A stretch of 64,000 nt of DNA from Methylococcaceae bacterium (GTDB lineage: Bacteria > Pseudomonadota > Gammaproteobacteria > Methylococcales > Methylomonadaceae). Below, piece after piece: positions 9,085 through 56,817 of this stretch (the first letter of the stretch is position 1; every line of letters begins with the position of its first letter). Position numbers and translations under genes: made by a program. The stretch is taken from NCBI GenBank assembly GCA_030693065.1, contig JAUYBL010000038.1, forward strand, positions 62,001 through 126,000, read 5' to 3'. Under the pieces are notes generated by a model. That model was not told the DNA's origin, made no database searches, and saw only the letters and a list, made by a program, of their open reading frames with translations.

Positions 9085-9591
9085 TTAATAGTTCCCAACG
9101 TAATCTTTTTTTCCAATTTCCACACCATTATGGCGCAGGATGGCATAGGTGGTGGTGAGGTGAAAATGGAAATTGGGCAGCACAAAATCAAGTAAGTAAG
9201 CTTGCCCTAAAAAATTGAGTTCTTTGCTGCCAAATTTAAGGGTGATTTTACGATCCTCACTGCCGTCAACTTGCGAAGCGCTTACACTTTGTAAAAACGC
9301 TACTGTCTTGGTGATACGCTCTTGTAAATCAGCAAACGTGGTTTCGTTATCTTCATAACTGGGAACTTCAATCCCTGCCAGGCGTGCAGCACAGCCTTTA
9401 ACCATATCTGTGGCAATTTGTACTTGGCGACTAAGTGGAAACATATCAGGCGCTAGGCGCGCGTTTACAAAAATGGCCGGGTCGATTTTTTTCGTTTCCG
9501 CATGCGCGGCAGCTTTATCGAGAATCGCGGATAAATTCCCTAACATACGCACAAAAACGGGGATTGAAGCTTGATACATGGTTAATGACAT
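9085..9591 (-). CDS. DUF1993 family protein
   Basis: A soluble 168-residue protein matching the DUF1993 family in length and pattern. It opens with MYQASIPVFVRMLGNL, has a central EVPSYEDNETTFADLQERI segment, and a C-terminal part with LPNFHFHLTTTYAILRHNGV. The four-helix arrangement and conserved histidine cluster (HFHL) resemble DinB-like metal-binding folds, but no biochemical role is established. A GGAA sits about 10 bases before the ATG. It lies 39 bases upstream of the TSUP permease gene on the same strand. Confidence 0.85.
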   Translation of the reverse strand: MSLTMYQASIPVFVRMLGNLSAILDKAAAHAETKKIDPAIFVNARLAPDMFPLSRQVQIATDMVKGCAARLAGIEVPSYEDNETTFADLQERITKTVAFLQSVSASQVDGSEDRKITLKFGSKELNFLGQAYLLDFVLPNFHFHLTTTYAILRHNGVEIGKKDYVGNY

Positions 9592-53508: not shown

Positions 53509-54765
53509 TTACTGCCTGATATGCCCATCGCCCAGGACGATGTACTTCAGTGAAGTTAAGCCTTTCAATCCAACCGGGCCGCGCGCATGCAGTTTGTCGG
53601 TACTAATTCCGATTTCAGCGCCTAAGCCATATTCAAAACCATCGGCAAAACGGGTTGAGGCATTGACCATTACTGAACTGGAATCCACTTCACGCAGAAA
53701 ACGTCTTGCCAGTGTGTAATCTTCAGTAACAATCGCTTCGGTATGCGCGGAACTATATTGATTGATATGGGTAATCGCTTCGTCGATACCGGCAACGATA
53801 TGAATGGATAATATCGGCGCCAAATATTCAGTATGCCAATCTGCTTCTGTGGCTCTTATAGCCTGTGGAATCAATGAACAGGTTTTTGCGCAGCCCCGTA
53901 ACTCCACGCCTTTTTCCAGATATTGCGCAGCCAGCAACGGCAATATTTTGGGAGCAATGCTTTCCGCTATTAACAAGGTTTCCATGGCATTACAGACGCC
54001 GTAACGATGCGTTTTAGCATTGATGGCAATCGCGATCGCCTTATCAATATCAGCTTTGTCATCAATATAGACATGACAAATACCATCCAGATGTTTGATC
54101 ACCGGAATGGTCGCATTATTGGAAATACGTTCAATCAAGCTTTTGCCGCCGCGCGGCACAATCACATCAACATACTGGTTCATGGTAATCAACTCGCCCA
54201 CTGCGGCACGATCTGCAGTGGCGACGATTTGCACCGCGGTCGTCGGCAAACCGGATGCTGCCAAGCCCTCGCTAATGCAGGCAGCAATCGCTTGATTAGA
54301 ATGTATTGATTCCGAACCGCCGCGCAGAATACAAGCATTGCCCGCTTTAAGACACAACGCCGCGGCATCAATAGTGACATTCGGGCGGGATTCGTAAATG
54401 ATACCGATCACACCCAAGGGCACGCGCATTTGCCCTACCTGGATGCCGCTGGGTCGGTAGCTCAAGTCGCTGATTTCACCAACAGGATCCGGCAATGCAG
54501 CCACTTGTTTCAACCCTTCAACCATGGCCTGAATACTTTTAGGTGTTAATGCCAAACGGTCTAATGACGCCGCATCCAGCCCGCTTTGCTTGGCTGCCGC
54601 TAAGTCTTTAGCGTTTTCGGCAATCAACCGGTCGCTGCTGTTACTGATGATTTCGGCAATCTTCAACAGTGCCTGATTTTTTTTACCTGACTCGGCGCGA
54701 CTGATTTCACGCCCAGCTTTTCTGGCTTGTTCACCCAGGTTTTGCATGTACTGCTTAATGTCCAC
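53509..54765 (-). CDS. proA: gamma-glutamyl phosphate reductase
   Basis: Second step of proline synthesis: NADPH reduction of gamma-glutamyl phosphate to glutamate semialdehyde. It has the ALDH fold with the catalytic Cys in [18 protein letters not shown] (seen as [12 protein letters not shown]), plus [25 protein letters not shown] and [18 protein letters not shown]. The frame opens at a GTG at 54777, but GAGG lies 6 bases before the GTG at 54765, giving 418 residues, almost identical to E. coli ProA (417). nadD and rsfS follow. No proB is adjacent. Confidence 0.95.
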
Positions 54766-54895
54766 TTCTATCCTCACTTGGCATTAATCATTAATGACCG
54801 GCATTGTATCTTAGTCCGGGCATAAATAGGACTTGACATGACATGCATCGCGCTAATTTTTGCCATCAAAAACAAAGAATCAATGACATAGCGAC

Positions 54896-55200
54896 TTTTC
54901 CACAAAAACTGTGGATAACTTTGTGCATAAGTAAAAAATAAGTCCGCTCAGCCCTTGTAAAATCAGGCCTGTCATTAAATTGACTTACTTTTATACAAAG
55001 TAATTATATTGTTAATTATCAATAAGTTAATAAAATTAAAATACGCGATTGGCTAAATATTACAGCATTGTCAGCCATTTCTTACGTTGGAATTGTTATC
55101 CACAATTTTTGTGGATAACTTTGTGTAAAAGATCAAGATAAGTCGCTTGAGCCTTTATAAAACGGCTGCTGCGCATAGATCGCTTAGTTTTTATACATTG
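54896..55200. other. duplicated DnaA-box triads, 200 bp apart
   Basis: Two units of about 105 bases are imperfect direct repeats with an exact 200-bp offset. Each has an inverted pair plus a third box: 54896-54904 (TTTTCCACA), 54910-54918 (TGTGGATAA), 54922-54930 (TGTGCATAA); and 55096-55104 (TTATCCACA), 55110-55118 (TGTGGATAA), 55122-55130 (TGTGTAAAA). Four match TTATNCACA perfectly and two have one mismatch. The similarity continues through ATAAGTC and TTTTATACA. An AT-rich stretch (about 54987-55060) lies between. It fits a DnaA-binding region: an origin, a titration site, or a DnaA-regulated promoter. The gap 54766-55349 holds no gene. Confidence 0.7.
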
Positions 55201-55349
55201 TTAACGAATAAATCGATTTGCCATATATATTTAGGCTTGTAAGCTGAAAACCAGCTGCAACTTTTTTGACGCAAAAATAATTTTGTGTGAATAATCGTCT
55301 ATGCCTTTAAGGATCCTATTTAATCCCACCTCACTCACTTCAAATTGAC

Positions 55350-55862
55350 ATGCCACTGTTTATAATCCTAAGCCTTGCCTTAACTTATTTAGTTCATACC
55401 GACAGCCATTGGCAACAGATGCTGATCTCTTCACCTGCGGTGCTTTATATCAGCGCGACGTTGGCGGCGGTAAGTCTTATCGCTAGCGCTTTCAAAAAAA
55501 TCCCACTGGCGCTTATTTATGATGTTTTTTCCAGTTCGGTGTTGATCATCTGGTTTTATTACTGGAAATCGATACCCCTATTTAAAGAAGACTCACCGAT
55601 ATTTTTCTTTTTCCCGGTCTATTTTTCGTTAATGGCGGCATTTGTCTCGGCATTTTTTAGCAGCCAAAAACAACAGTTCGATGCCGAATCATTCCGGCAA
55701 ATGCAGGTTATTTCCAAACGCAGCCGTTTACAACCATGGGTAGTGATGCTGTGCGTTTTAGGTAGCTTGGCGTGGTATGACAATTACCTGTTGTTTCCAA
55801 CTATCATGACGCTGCTATTTGCCCGCTTTGCGCTGTCAAATCTGCTGCAAGAAAATAATTAA
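55350..55862 (+). CDS. membrane protein of unknown function
   Basis: 170 residues with about five hydrophobic segments (1-15, 28-47, 55-70, 83-102 and 130-165). Aromatic-rich stretches (LIIWFYYW, IFFFFPVYFSLM) and a short polar loop with SSQKQQFDAESFRQMQVISKR stand out. No family is recognised. There is no clear ribosome-binding site. It begins about 150 bases after the DnaA-box repeats and 25 bases before the deacetylase gene, with which it is probably co-transcribed. Confidence 0.6.
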   Translation: MPLFIILSLALTYLVHTDSHWQQMLISSPAVLYISATLAAVSLIASAFKKIPLALIYDVFSSSVLIIWFYYWKSIPLFKEDSPIFFFFPVYFSLMAAFVSAFFSSQKQQFDAESFRQMQVISKRSRLQPWVVMLCVLGSLAWYDNYLLFPTIMTLLFARFALSNLLQENN

Positions 55863-55887: not shown

Positions 55888-56817
55888 ATGAAAAAAACCC
55901 TTTACTACTCGCATCCGGATTTTTTACTACACGATACCGGTGTCGGTCATCCTGAATGCGCAGCGCGTCTTAAAGCGATCGAAGCGGCGCTTAGTACACC
56001 TGAATTTACTGAGTTAATTAGACTCTCGGCACCATTGGGATCAGAACAGCAAATTCAGCTGATTCACCCGCATGCGCATATCGAGCAAATCTTCTCAGCA
56101 ATTCCCCAACACGGCGAACATTATTTGGATGACGACACTATCGTCTCCCCAGGCTCTAAAAATGCGGTATTACGTGCCGTGGGTGCGGTGTGTGATGCGG
56201 TTGATAAGCTTATGTCGAATCAGGCAAATAACGCTTTTTGCGCGATACGACCACCTGGACATCATGCCGAACCTAATCAAGCGATGGGCTTTTGCCTGTT
56301 TAATAACATTGCCATTGCCGCAGAATATGCGCGCCGCCATTACCATCTTAAACGCATTGCAATTGTTGATTTTGACGTTCATCACGGTAACGGTACACAA
56401 GCGACTTTTTATAATCAGCCCTTCGTACTTTATGCCTCCAGCCATGAGATGCCGCACTACCCCGGCACTGGCTACCCCACTGAAACCGGCGTAGGCAACA
56501 TCATTAATGTGCCGCTGTCACACGGTGAGAGCGGCCAAAGTGTCAGACAAAAATACAGCAACATCATCTTTCCGGCTCTACATCATTTCAAACCTGAATT
56601 TTTGCTGATTTCAGCGGGTTTTGATGCCCATAAGGATGACCCATTATCATCTACATTATTGCTTGAAGATGATTTCCGCTGGTTGACTCAGGAATTAATG
56701 ACCATTGCCGACAGTCATTGCCAAGGCCGTATTATTTCCGCATTGGAAGGCGGCTATCATCTGGCGGCGCTGGCTGCCAGCGTTGCCGTACATGTCAAAA
56801 CCTTGTTGCAGAATTAA
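55888..56817 (+). CDS. histone deacetylase family (class II-like) amidohydrolase
   Basis: 309 residues, the length of bacterial acetylpolyamine/acetoin-utilisation-type deacetylases. Zn and catalytic motifs are intact: RPPGHHAEPNQAMGFCLFNN (tandem His), DFDVHHGNGTQ (Asp and His metal ligands), SAGFDAHKDDPL (second Asp) and EGGYHL. Substrates could be acetylated polyamines or proteins. It follows the small membrane protein gene on the same strand and converges on the SulP gene. Confidence 0.92.
   Translation: MKKTLYYSHPDFLLHDTGVGHPECAARLKAIEAALSTPEFTELIRLSAPLGSEQQIQLIHPHAHIEQIFSAIPQHGEHYLDDDTIVSPGSKNAVLRAVGAVCDAVDKLMSNQANNAFCAIRPPGHHAEPNQAMGFCLFNNIAIAAEYARRHYHLKRIAIVDFDVHHGNGTQATFYNQPFVLYASSHEMPHYPGTGYPTETGVGNIINVPLSHGESGQSVRQKYSNIIFPALHHFKPEFLLISAGFDAHKDDPLSSTLLLEDDFRWLTQELMTIADSHCQGRIISALEGGYHLAALAASVAVHVKTLLQN

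Follow-up and report, generated by a model that had tools for sequence, protein, structure and literature searches.

The window, i.e., the whole stretch of 64,000 nucleotides that was analysed, comprises positions 62001-126000 of contig C38 (347 kb) in a Methylococcaceae assembly of 3.96 Mb and 38 contigs. Between proA and an open reading frame (ORF) of 170 amino acids it contains a non-coding gap (54778-55349; no ORF of at least 80 aa), and thus an intergenic setting of the kind expected for a DARS. In this gap lie two clusters of DnaA boxes, referred to as core A and core B, and a predicted IHF site. The features in and around the gap are, in window coordinates:

53509..54777, minus strand: proA, glutamate-5-semialdehyde dehydrogenase (NF001221, 629.2 bits, cut-off 289), left neighbour, transcribed away from the module
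54896..54904, plus strand: DnaA box I of core A, TTTTCCACA, one mismatch, five bases (N5) from box II as in E. coli DARS1 and DARS2
54910..54918, minus strand: DnaA box II of core A, TTATCCACA, perfect, head-to-head with box I
54922..54930, minus strand: DnaA box III of core A, TTATGCACA, perfect, 3 bp past box II
54975..54996, plus strand: block TTAAATTG...TTTTATAC between core A and the IHF site, with similar words in the modules of many genera (comparison by eye)
55017..55029, plus strand: predicted IHF site, perfect consensus TATCAATAAGTTA (WATCAANNNNTTR), at +121 from the start of core A
55096..55104, plus strand: DnaA box I of core B, TTATCCACA, perfect
55110..55118, minus strand: DnaA box II of core B, TTATCCACA, perfect, 93 bp past the start of the IHF site
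55122..55130, minus strand: DnaA box III of core B, TTTTACACA, one mismatch, 105 bp past the start of the IHF site
55217..55229, plus strand: position expected for an IHF site of core B (+121), with no consensus match at one mismatch or fewer
55286..55294, minus strand: additional perfect DnaA box, TTATTCACA, 190 bp past the start of core B
55350..55862, plus strand: 170-aa ORF, right neighbour, a putative membrane protein by the look of its sequence
55888..56817, plus strand: histone deacetylase domain protein (PF00850, 305.3 bits)

The 170-aa ORF, which presumably corresponds to COG4648, matched no family among the Pfam and NCBIfam profiles at an E-value of 1e-5. The two cores are triads (54896-54930 and 55096-55130) repeated at a distance of exactly 200 bp. 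In each of them, boxes I and II are head-to-head with five bases between them, and a gap of 3 bp separates box II from box III; four perfect DnaA boxes and two with one mismatch fall within 235 bp. The first-pass annotation had described these six boxes, their N5/N3 spacing and the 200-bp repeat, and a box scan recovered all of them in place. The weaker identity of the two units over about 105 bp was likewise noted, by eye. Its remark that the intergenic region is otherwise empty holds for ORFs but not for DnaA boxes, as it had listed neither the perfect box at 55286 nor a further one-mismatch box at 54991 (TTATACAAA). The claim that the boxes exceed chance expectation was borne out for their arrangement: two triads were observed versus none in 100 shuffles of the window (at most three mismatches in total; bases permuted inside 1-kb blocks, dinucleotides not preserved). 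Single boxes are not enriched, with 61 in the whole window at one mismatch or fewer versus 66.25 expected.

When selected stretches of E. coli MG1655 were scanned in the same way, one triad was found in the bioD-uvrB gap at 0.81 Mb (TTATCCACT.ATTCC.TGTGGATAA.CCA.TGTGTATTA) and one in the rppH-mutH gap at 2.97 Mb (TTATTCACC.TTTTC.TGTGGATAG.AGT.TGTGAAGAA). According to the accessible parts of the sources, these gaps are the places of DARS1 and DARS2, respectively (PMC5742627, PMC5835720). The two sites, at 0.81 and 2.97 Mb, are described there as sharing three equally spaced boxes with box I opposite to boxes II and III (PMC5742627), and the head-to-head pair of boxes I and II is termed an essential hallmark of DARSs in the portion available of PMC10380432. 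Both cores of the window show these three boxes in the same orientations and with the spacing of DARS1 and DARS2. The E. coli stretches with oriC, datA, priA or fis yielded no triad at four mismatches or fewer, and those of oriC and datA also lacked a head-to-head N5 pair.

The resemblance to DARS2 extends beyond the core. In both, an IHF-like site lies downstream of the triad and a perfect DnaA box is located about 200 bp from the core start (+211 in E. coli DARS2); both IHF and Fis sites are required by DARS2 and their positions matter, as stated in the text available of PMC4245941. Core A of the window carries its IHF consensus at +121, an offset that is typical of the class but differs from that of E. 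coli, whereas core B has no such site. In E. coli DARS2, one-mismatch IHF-like sites were found at +109 and +93, the latter on the other strand, and owing to this second match the IHF offset of DARS2 is uncertain from sequence. The window further differs from DARS2 in having a second full core in place of the distal box, boxes closer to the consensus, three full modules in its own genome, and proA and the 170-aa ORF as neighbours instead of mutH. As the locus does not adjoin mutH, it is classed as DARS2-type rather than as a DARS2 orthologue. With DARS1, the window cores share the same core layout, and core B and DARS1 are also alike in lacking an IHF consensus of their own at one mismatch or fewer in the stretch scanned. 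DARS1 is solitary, however, and not in tandem with an IHF-bearing module, and its genomic place differs, since the window module is not located beside uvrB.

These comparisons also bear on the proposal of the first-pass annotation that the gap is a secondary DnaA-binding control locus like datA. The general part of this proposal is supported, but the kind of locus is not: by triad spacing and orientation the closest match is a DARS, and the E. coli datA region contains neither a triad nor a head-to-head N5 pair. A datA-like locus would assemble ATP-DnaA with IHF between the boxes and hydrolyse the ATP, or its boxes would merely titrate DnaA. The many boxes in little space would suit such a function, as would the IHF site flanked by core A and the distal boxes, since IHF is located between boxes 2 and 3 of datA in the accessible text of PMC5742627. 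The conserved part of the window locus, on the other hand, is the head-to-head core, which is the mark of DARSs in the available parts of PMC10380432 and PMC5742627, and this arrangement in both cores makes a datA-like function unlikely.

To what extent the layout of core A recurs was determined in 369 gammaproteobacterial genomes from 272 genera with a pattern made of box II, box III and the IHF consensus, separated by a free gap of 79-103 bp (25 gaps allowed). The pattern was matched in 99 genomes of 87 genera and a reversed-pattern control in none; these counts and those for the family include related genomes and orthologous places and are therefore not numbers of independent events. The remaining 270 genomes had no match to this strict pattern. 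Among the class matches listed, the IHF site started at +119 to +121 in 104 of 121 and at +117 to +123 in 117, with three at +109 and one at +130, and a control with the IHF consensus turned round gave seven matches in 6 of the 369 genomes. Two elements that were not part of the search pattern recurred as well. Box I was present at exactly N5 in 23 of 30 class loci (at most two mismatches), whereas each of the other spacings between 0 and 15 was seen in no more than 2 of the 30. In 27 of 29 loci, one of the 30 being too short for this count, the IHF start was followed at a distance of 81-84 bp by a fourth DnaA box in the orientation of boxes II and III. Boxes at +188 to +211 of the core start were likewise present in 27 of 29 loci versus 3 of 29 for a control interval further on. 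The fourth box of the class is oriented opposite to the consensus box at +211 of E. coli DARS2. A strict word search for the TTAAATTG block and its variants yielded only nine matches over the 30 class loci, eight of them 41-43 bp before the IHF start.

Within the family, the module pattern was matched in 84 of 121 genomes and 23 of 29 genera (control 0), with up to six modules per genome among the matches listed and no match to the strict pattern in 37 genomes. The core pattern at one mismatch or fewer was present in 108 of the 121 genomes (control 0), a count that includes some palindromes which are not triads. In 30 family module loci the IHF site was located at +120 to +122 in 25 and, about one helical turn further, at +132 or +133 in 5, and box I occurred at N5 in 29 (at most one mismatch). 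The distal boxes were more widely distributed. In 29 family loci, among them a locus of the window type in the relative G003, they were found 72-73 bp (5), 82-84 bp (12), 93 bp (2) and 104-105 bp (6) past the IHF start, i.e., in main groups spaced about one helical turn apart, and singly at 15, 125 and 132 bp (3 of 27 listed boxes). The fourth box at 82-84 bp is thus present in 12 of 29 family loci, as compared with 27 of 29 class loci at 81-84 bp. Core B stands at the place of the single distal box of other loci, with boxes predicted about one and two helical turns beyond the usual position. The core variant with TTTTCCACA as box I was found in 26 record stretches, including Methylococcaceae, Methylobacter marinus, Methylobacter luteus and Methylovulum, and is also represented outside the methanotroph records, for example in Colwellia, Candidatus Thiodiazotropha and Lysobacterales. 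Other tandem arrangements, in which full modules 351-355 bp apart each have their own IHF site, unlike the 200-bp pair of the window, were observed in one genus, g29 (G054:C1:2979541 and 2979892; G074:C1:753492 and 753844; G089:C1:572395 and 572750; G031:C150:47275 and 47627).

The first-pass annotation had suggested looking for the repeat at matching places in relatives, and such places were indeed found. The tandem pair of cores 200 bp apart is also present in G003, and in the relative G001 one core lies at a contig end beside proA and another at the start of a separate contig before the 170-aa ORF, which fits the same tandem layout. The 170-aa ORF itself was detected in 85 of the 121 family genomes, and a triad was located near it in 11 of the 30 best loci, representing five genera; the examined flanks of the other 19, where some contigs end, contained no triad. 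At one locus of a relative (L054) the triad is not accompanied by an IHF site at +121.

In the genome of the window organism, the pattern TTWTNCACA-N3..7-TGTGGATAA was matched at four places, all with a spacing of five bases (control 0): the two window cores, one site on contig C6 and a palindrome on C12. With one mismatch allowed, a further triad was recovered on C26 upstream of priA. Full modules are three in number, namely the window module, one beside cydC (C6) and one beside priA (C26), and the C6 and C26 copies have the IHF consensus at +121 as does core A. The palindrome (C12:28200-28222; L010 ~9189-9229) is made up of two perfect boxes that face each other at N5 and are embedded in a longer hairpin, ATGACAGGGTTATCCACA...TGTGGATAACCCTGTCAT, and similar head-to-head palindromes were observed in relatives. 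These TTATCCACA-N5-TGTGGATAA palindromes, of which G001 has several, were rejected as modules as they lack box III, and no IHF consensus was found at +100 to +139 in six of them checked (five loci, two being the same places as two others). They could represent terminators, mobile hairpins or another kind of DnaA site.

The genomic places of the modules are diverse, with some recurrent neighbours. priA is a neighbour in 8 of 30 class loci, and in all eight the core is next to the priA start and the module points away; the rpmE-priA gap of E. coli contains no triad. One class locus (L183) adjoins a gene whose product is 81% identical to E. coli UvrB over 443 aa, which is the place of DARS1. Among 55 flanking proteins, the Pfam families tallied (25 of 48 listed) were headed by the PriA 3' DNA-binding domain (7), the HemN C-terminal domain (4), DctM (3) and UPF0093 (3), followed by shikimate dehydrogenase (2), DUF3135 (2) and many singletons. 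The class gaps with a gene on both sides (n = 29) comprised 8 convergent, 4 divergent and 17 tandem pairs, based on crude ORF calls that in 5 of the 30 class loci include another call overlapping the module.

This diversity is relevant for the idea, also put forward in the first-pass annotation, that DnaA controls the promoter of the 170-aa ORF and the deacetylase gene; control could also involve IHF, or concern proA instead. At this particular gap such a role is conceivable, as the gap is divergent, the 170-aa ORF starts 220-454 bp downstream of the cores, and triads recur near this ORF in relatives. Both E. coli DARSs are also situated in promoter regions, as the accessible text of PMC5835720 indicates. 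As a general function, however, promoter control is unlikely, because modules of the same build are also located between convergent genes. This applies in the same genome to the C6 module, which lies between cydC (plus strand) and a gene with a Host_attach/baeRF12 domain (minus strand), and to the 8 of 29 convergent class gaps, with the reservation on ORF calling given above. Moreover, the triad of one relative (L083) is on the 3' side of the 170-aa ORF, and module neighbours vary widely. Overall, a DnaA/IHF-controlled promoter seems a distinctly doubtful explanation of the locus.

A third possibility raised at the outset was that the locus is an origin of replication. Like E. coli oriC, it combines DnaA boxes with an adjoining AT-rich stretch and an IHF site, but the E. 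coli oriC region contains neither a triad nor a head-to-head N5 pair, and there is no skew switch at the window locus. Each of the 24 stretches of 8-10 kb that were sampled on C38, on both sides of the locus (two overlapping others), had a negative GC skew, so that the predicted inversion was not seen in the sampled stretches. In the near-complete genome of the relative G054, with dnaA at base 1, the homologous triad at 1.85 Mb lies inside one replichore: the sampled skew was positive at the locus and in adjacent samples, as in the others between base 1 and 2.25 Mb, fell to about zero at 2.5 Mb, was negative from 2.75 to 4.25 Mb and reached zero again at 4.41 Mb. The suggested comparison with the dnaA/dnaN and mnmG loci did not favour an origin in the window either. 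The dnaA-dnaN gap contains four boxes at one mismatch or fewer, one of them perfect, but no triad, and thus is still an origin candidate, though not of the window kind, whereas 20 kb around mnmG had no perfect DnaA box. Another candidate oriC, judged from base composition and boxes, is an AT-rich gap on C25 (279690-279810; L080:689-809) with three TTATCCACA boxes, about 29 kb from dnaA and before the gene of an AAA-type ATPase, which we take to be MoxR. The kilobase around 279.7 kb has a G + C content of 36%, and the skew there changes from negative to weakly positive; since the skew of C25 is weak and changes sign elsewhere too, both this gap and the dnaA-dnaN gap remain candidates. Triad-dnaA distances compared by hand in a few relatives shared no common value. 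No ORF flanking any of the 30 class loci matched the dnaA or mnmG neighbourhoods of the window's genome, and the occurrence of several modules per genome also argues against an origin. An origin at this locus was consequently rejected on the basis of GC skew, and that it represents oriC or a second origin is extremely improbable.

Of the readings considered, we favour, with a probability of about three in four, that the gap is occupied by a DnaA-reactivating module of the DARS2 type, which has a second core. As judged from the sequence, core A is a head-to-head pair (N5) with a third box (N3) in the core layout of the E. coli DARSs, followed by an IHF consensus at the distance that recurs in the class, and the full core B takes the place of a distal box. 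The genome of the organism encodes Hda (TIGR03420, 268.6 bits, cut-off 194.8), IHF-alpha (TIGR00987, 164 bits, cut-off 120.25) and a homologue of Fis (41% identity over 79 aa). With Hda encoded, Hda-driven hydrolysis of ATP on DnaA is expected, and the three proteins together would make possible both the inactivation of DnaA after initiation and its IHF- and Fis-aided reactivation. In the E. coli model, as outlined in the accessible parts of the sources, boxes I and II bind ADP-DnaA as a head-to-head pair, with the aid of IHF and Fis in the case of DARS2; ADP then dissociates, and the apo-DnaA is loaded with ATP (PMC5742627, PMC4245941, PMC10380432). By analogy with this model, ADP-DnaA formed after initiation may assemble head-to-head on core A, and a bend induced by IHF would bring DnaA bound to the distal boxes, here the whole of core B, to the core complex. 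ADP would then be released, and apo-DnaA would leave and take up ATP, raising the level of ATP-DnaA for the next initiation at an origin elsewhere.

DARS sites help to set the time of the ATP-DnaA rise for the next round of replication, a mechanism that was worked out in E. coli, and work by Fujimitsu et al. from 2009 is reportedly cited for DARS conservation. DARS-like sites outside E. coli are not new, since sequences like DARS1 and DARS2 are described as conserved in many proteobacterial species in the part available of PMC10380432; PMC8682772, in its accessible text, presents a comparison of E. coli and seven near species, Vibrio cholerae among them. No publication on DARSs in methanotrophs or beside priA was found among the matches listed, subscription journals being mostly outside the search. 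As far as this literature search shows, the class-wide geometry, the copy number, the priA-linked place and the second core thus seem to be new. Taken as one joint proposition, which we consider evenly balanced, the general gammaproteobacterial DARS would be a four-part module spanning about 215 bp, in which the head-to-head core is followed by an IHF site at about +120 and a fourth box some 83 bp beyond that site; E. coli DARS2 would be a changed and DARS1 a stripped form of this module; methanotroph genomes would carry several copies, the place beside priA would be recurrent in many lineages, and in the genus of the window the fourth box would have become a second core, yielding a two-core reactivator. 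A fixed geometry of core, IHF site and box over much of the class would show which distances matter for the reactivation of DnaA, provides a simple search pattern for DARS sites of other Gammaproteobacteria, and allows a direct test of the DNA-bending model by altering the spacing. The presence of several modules per genome, in turn, raises the question of how their dose and position set the timing of initiation.
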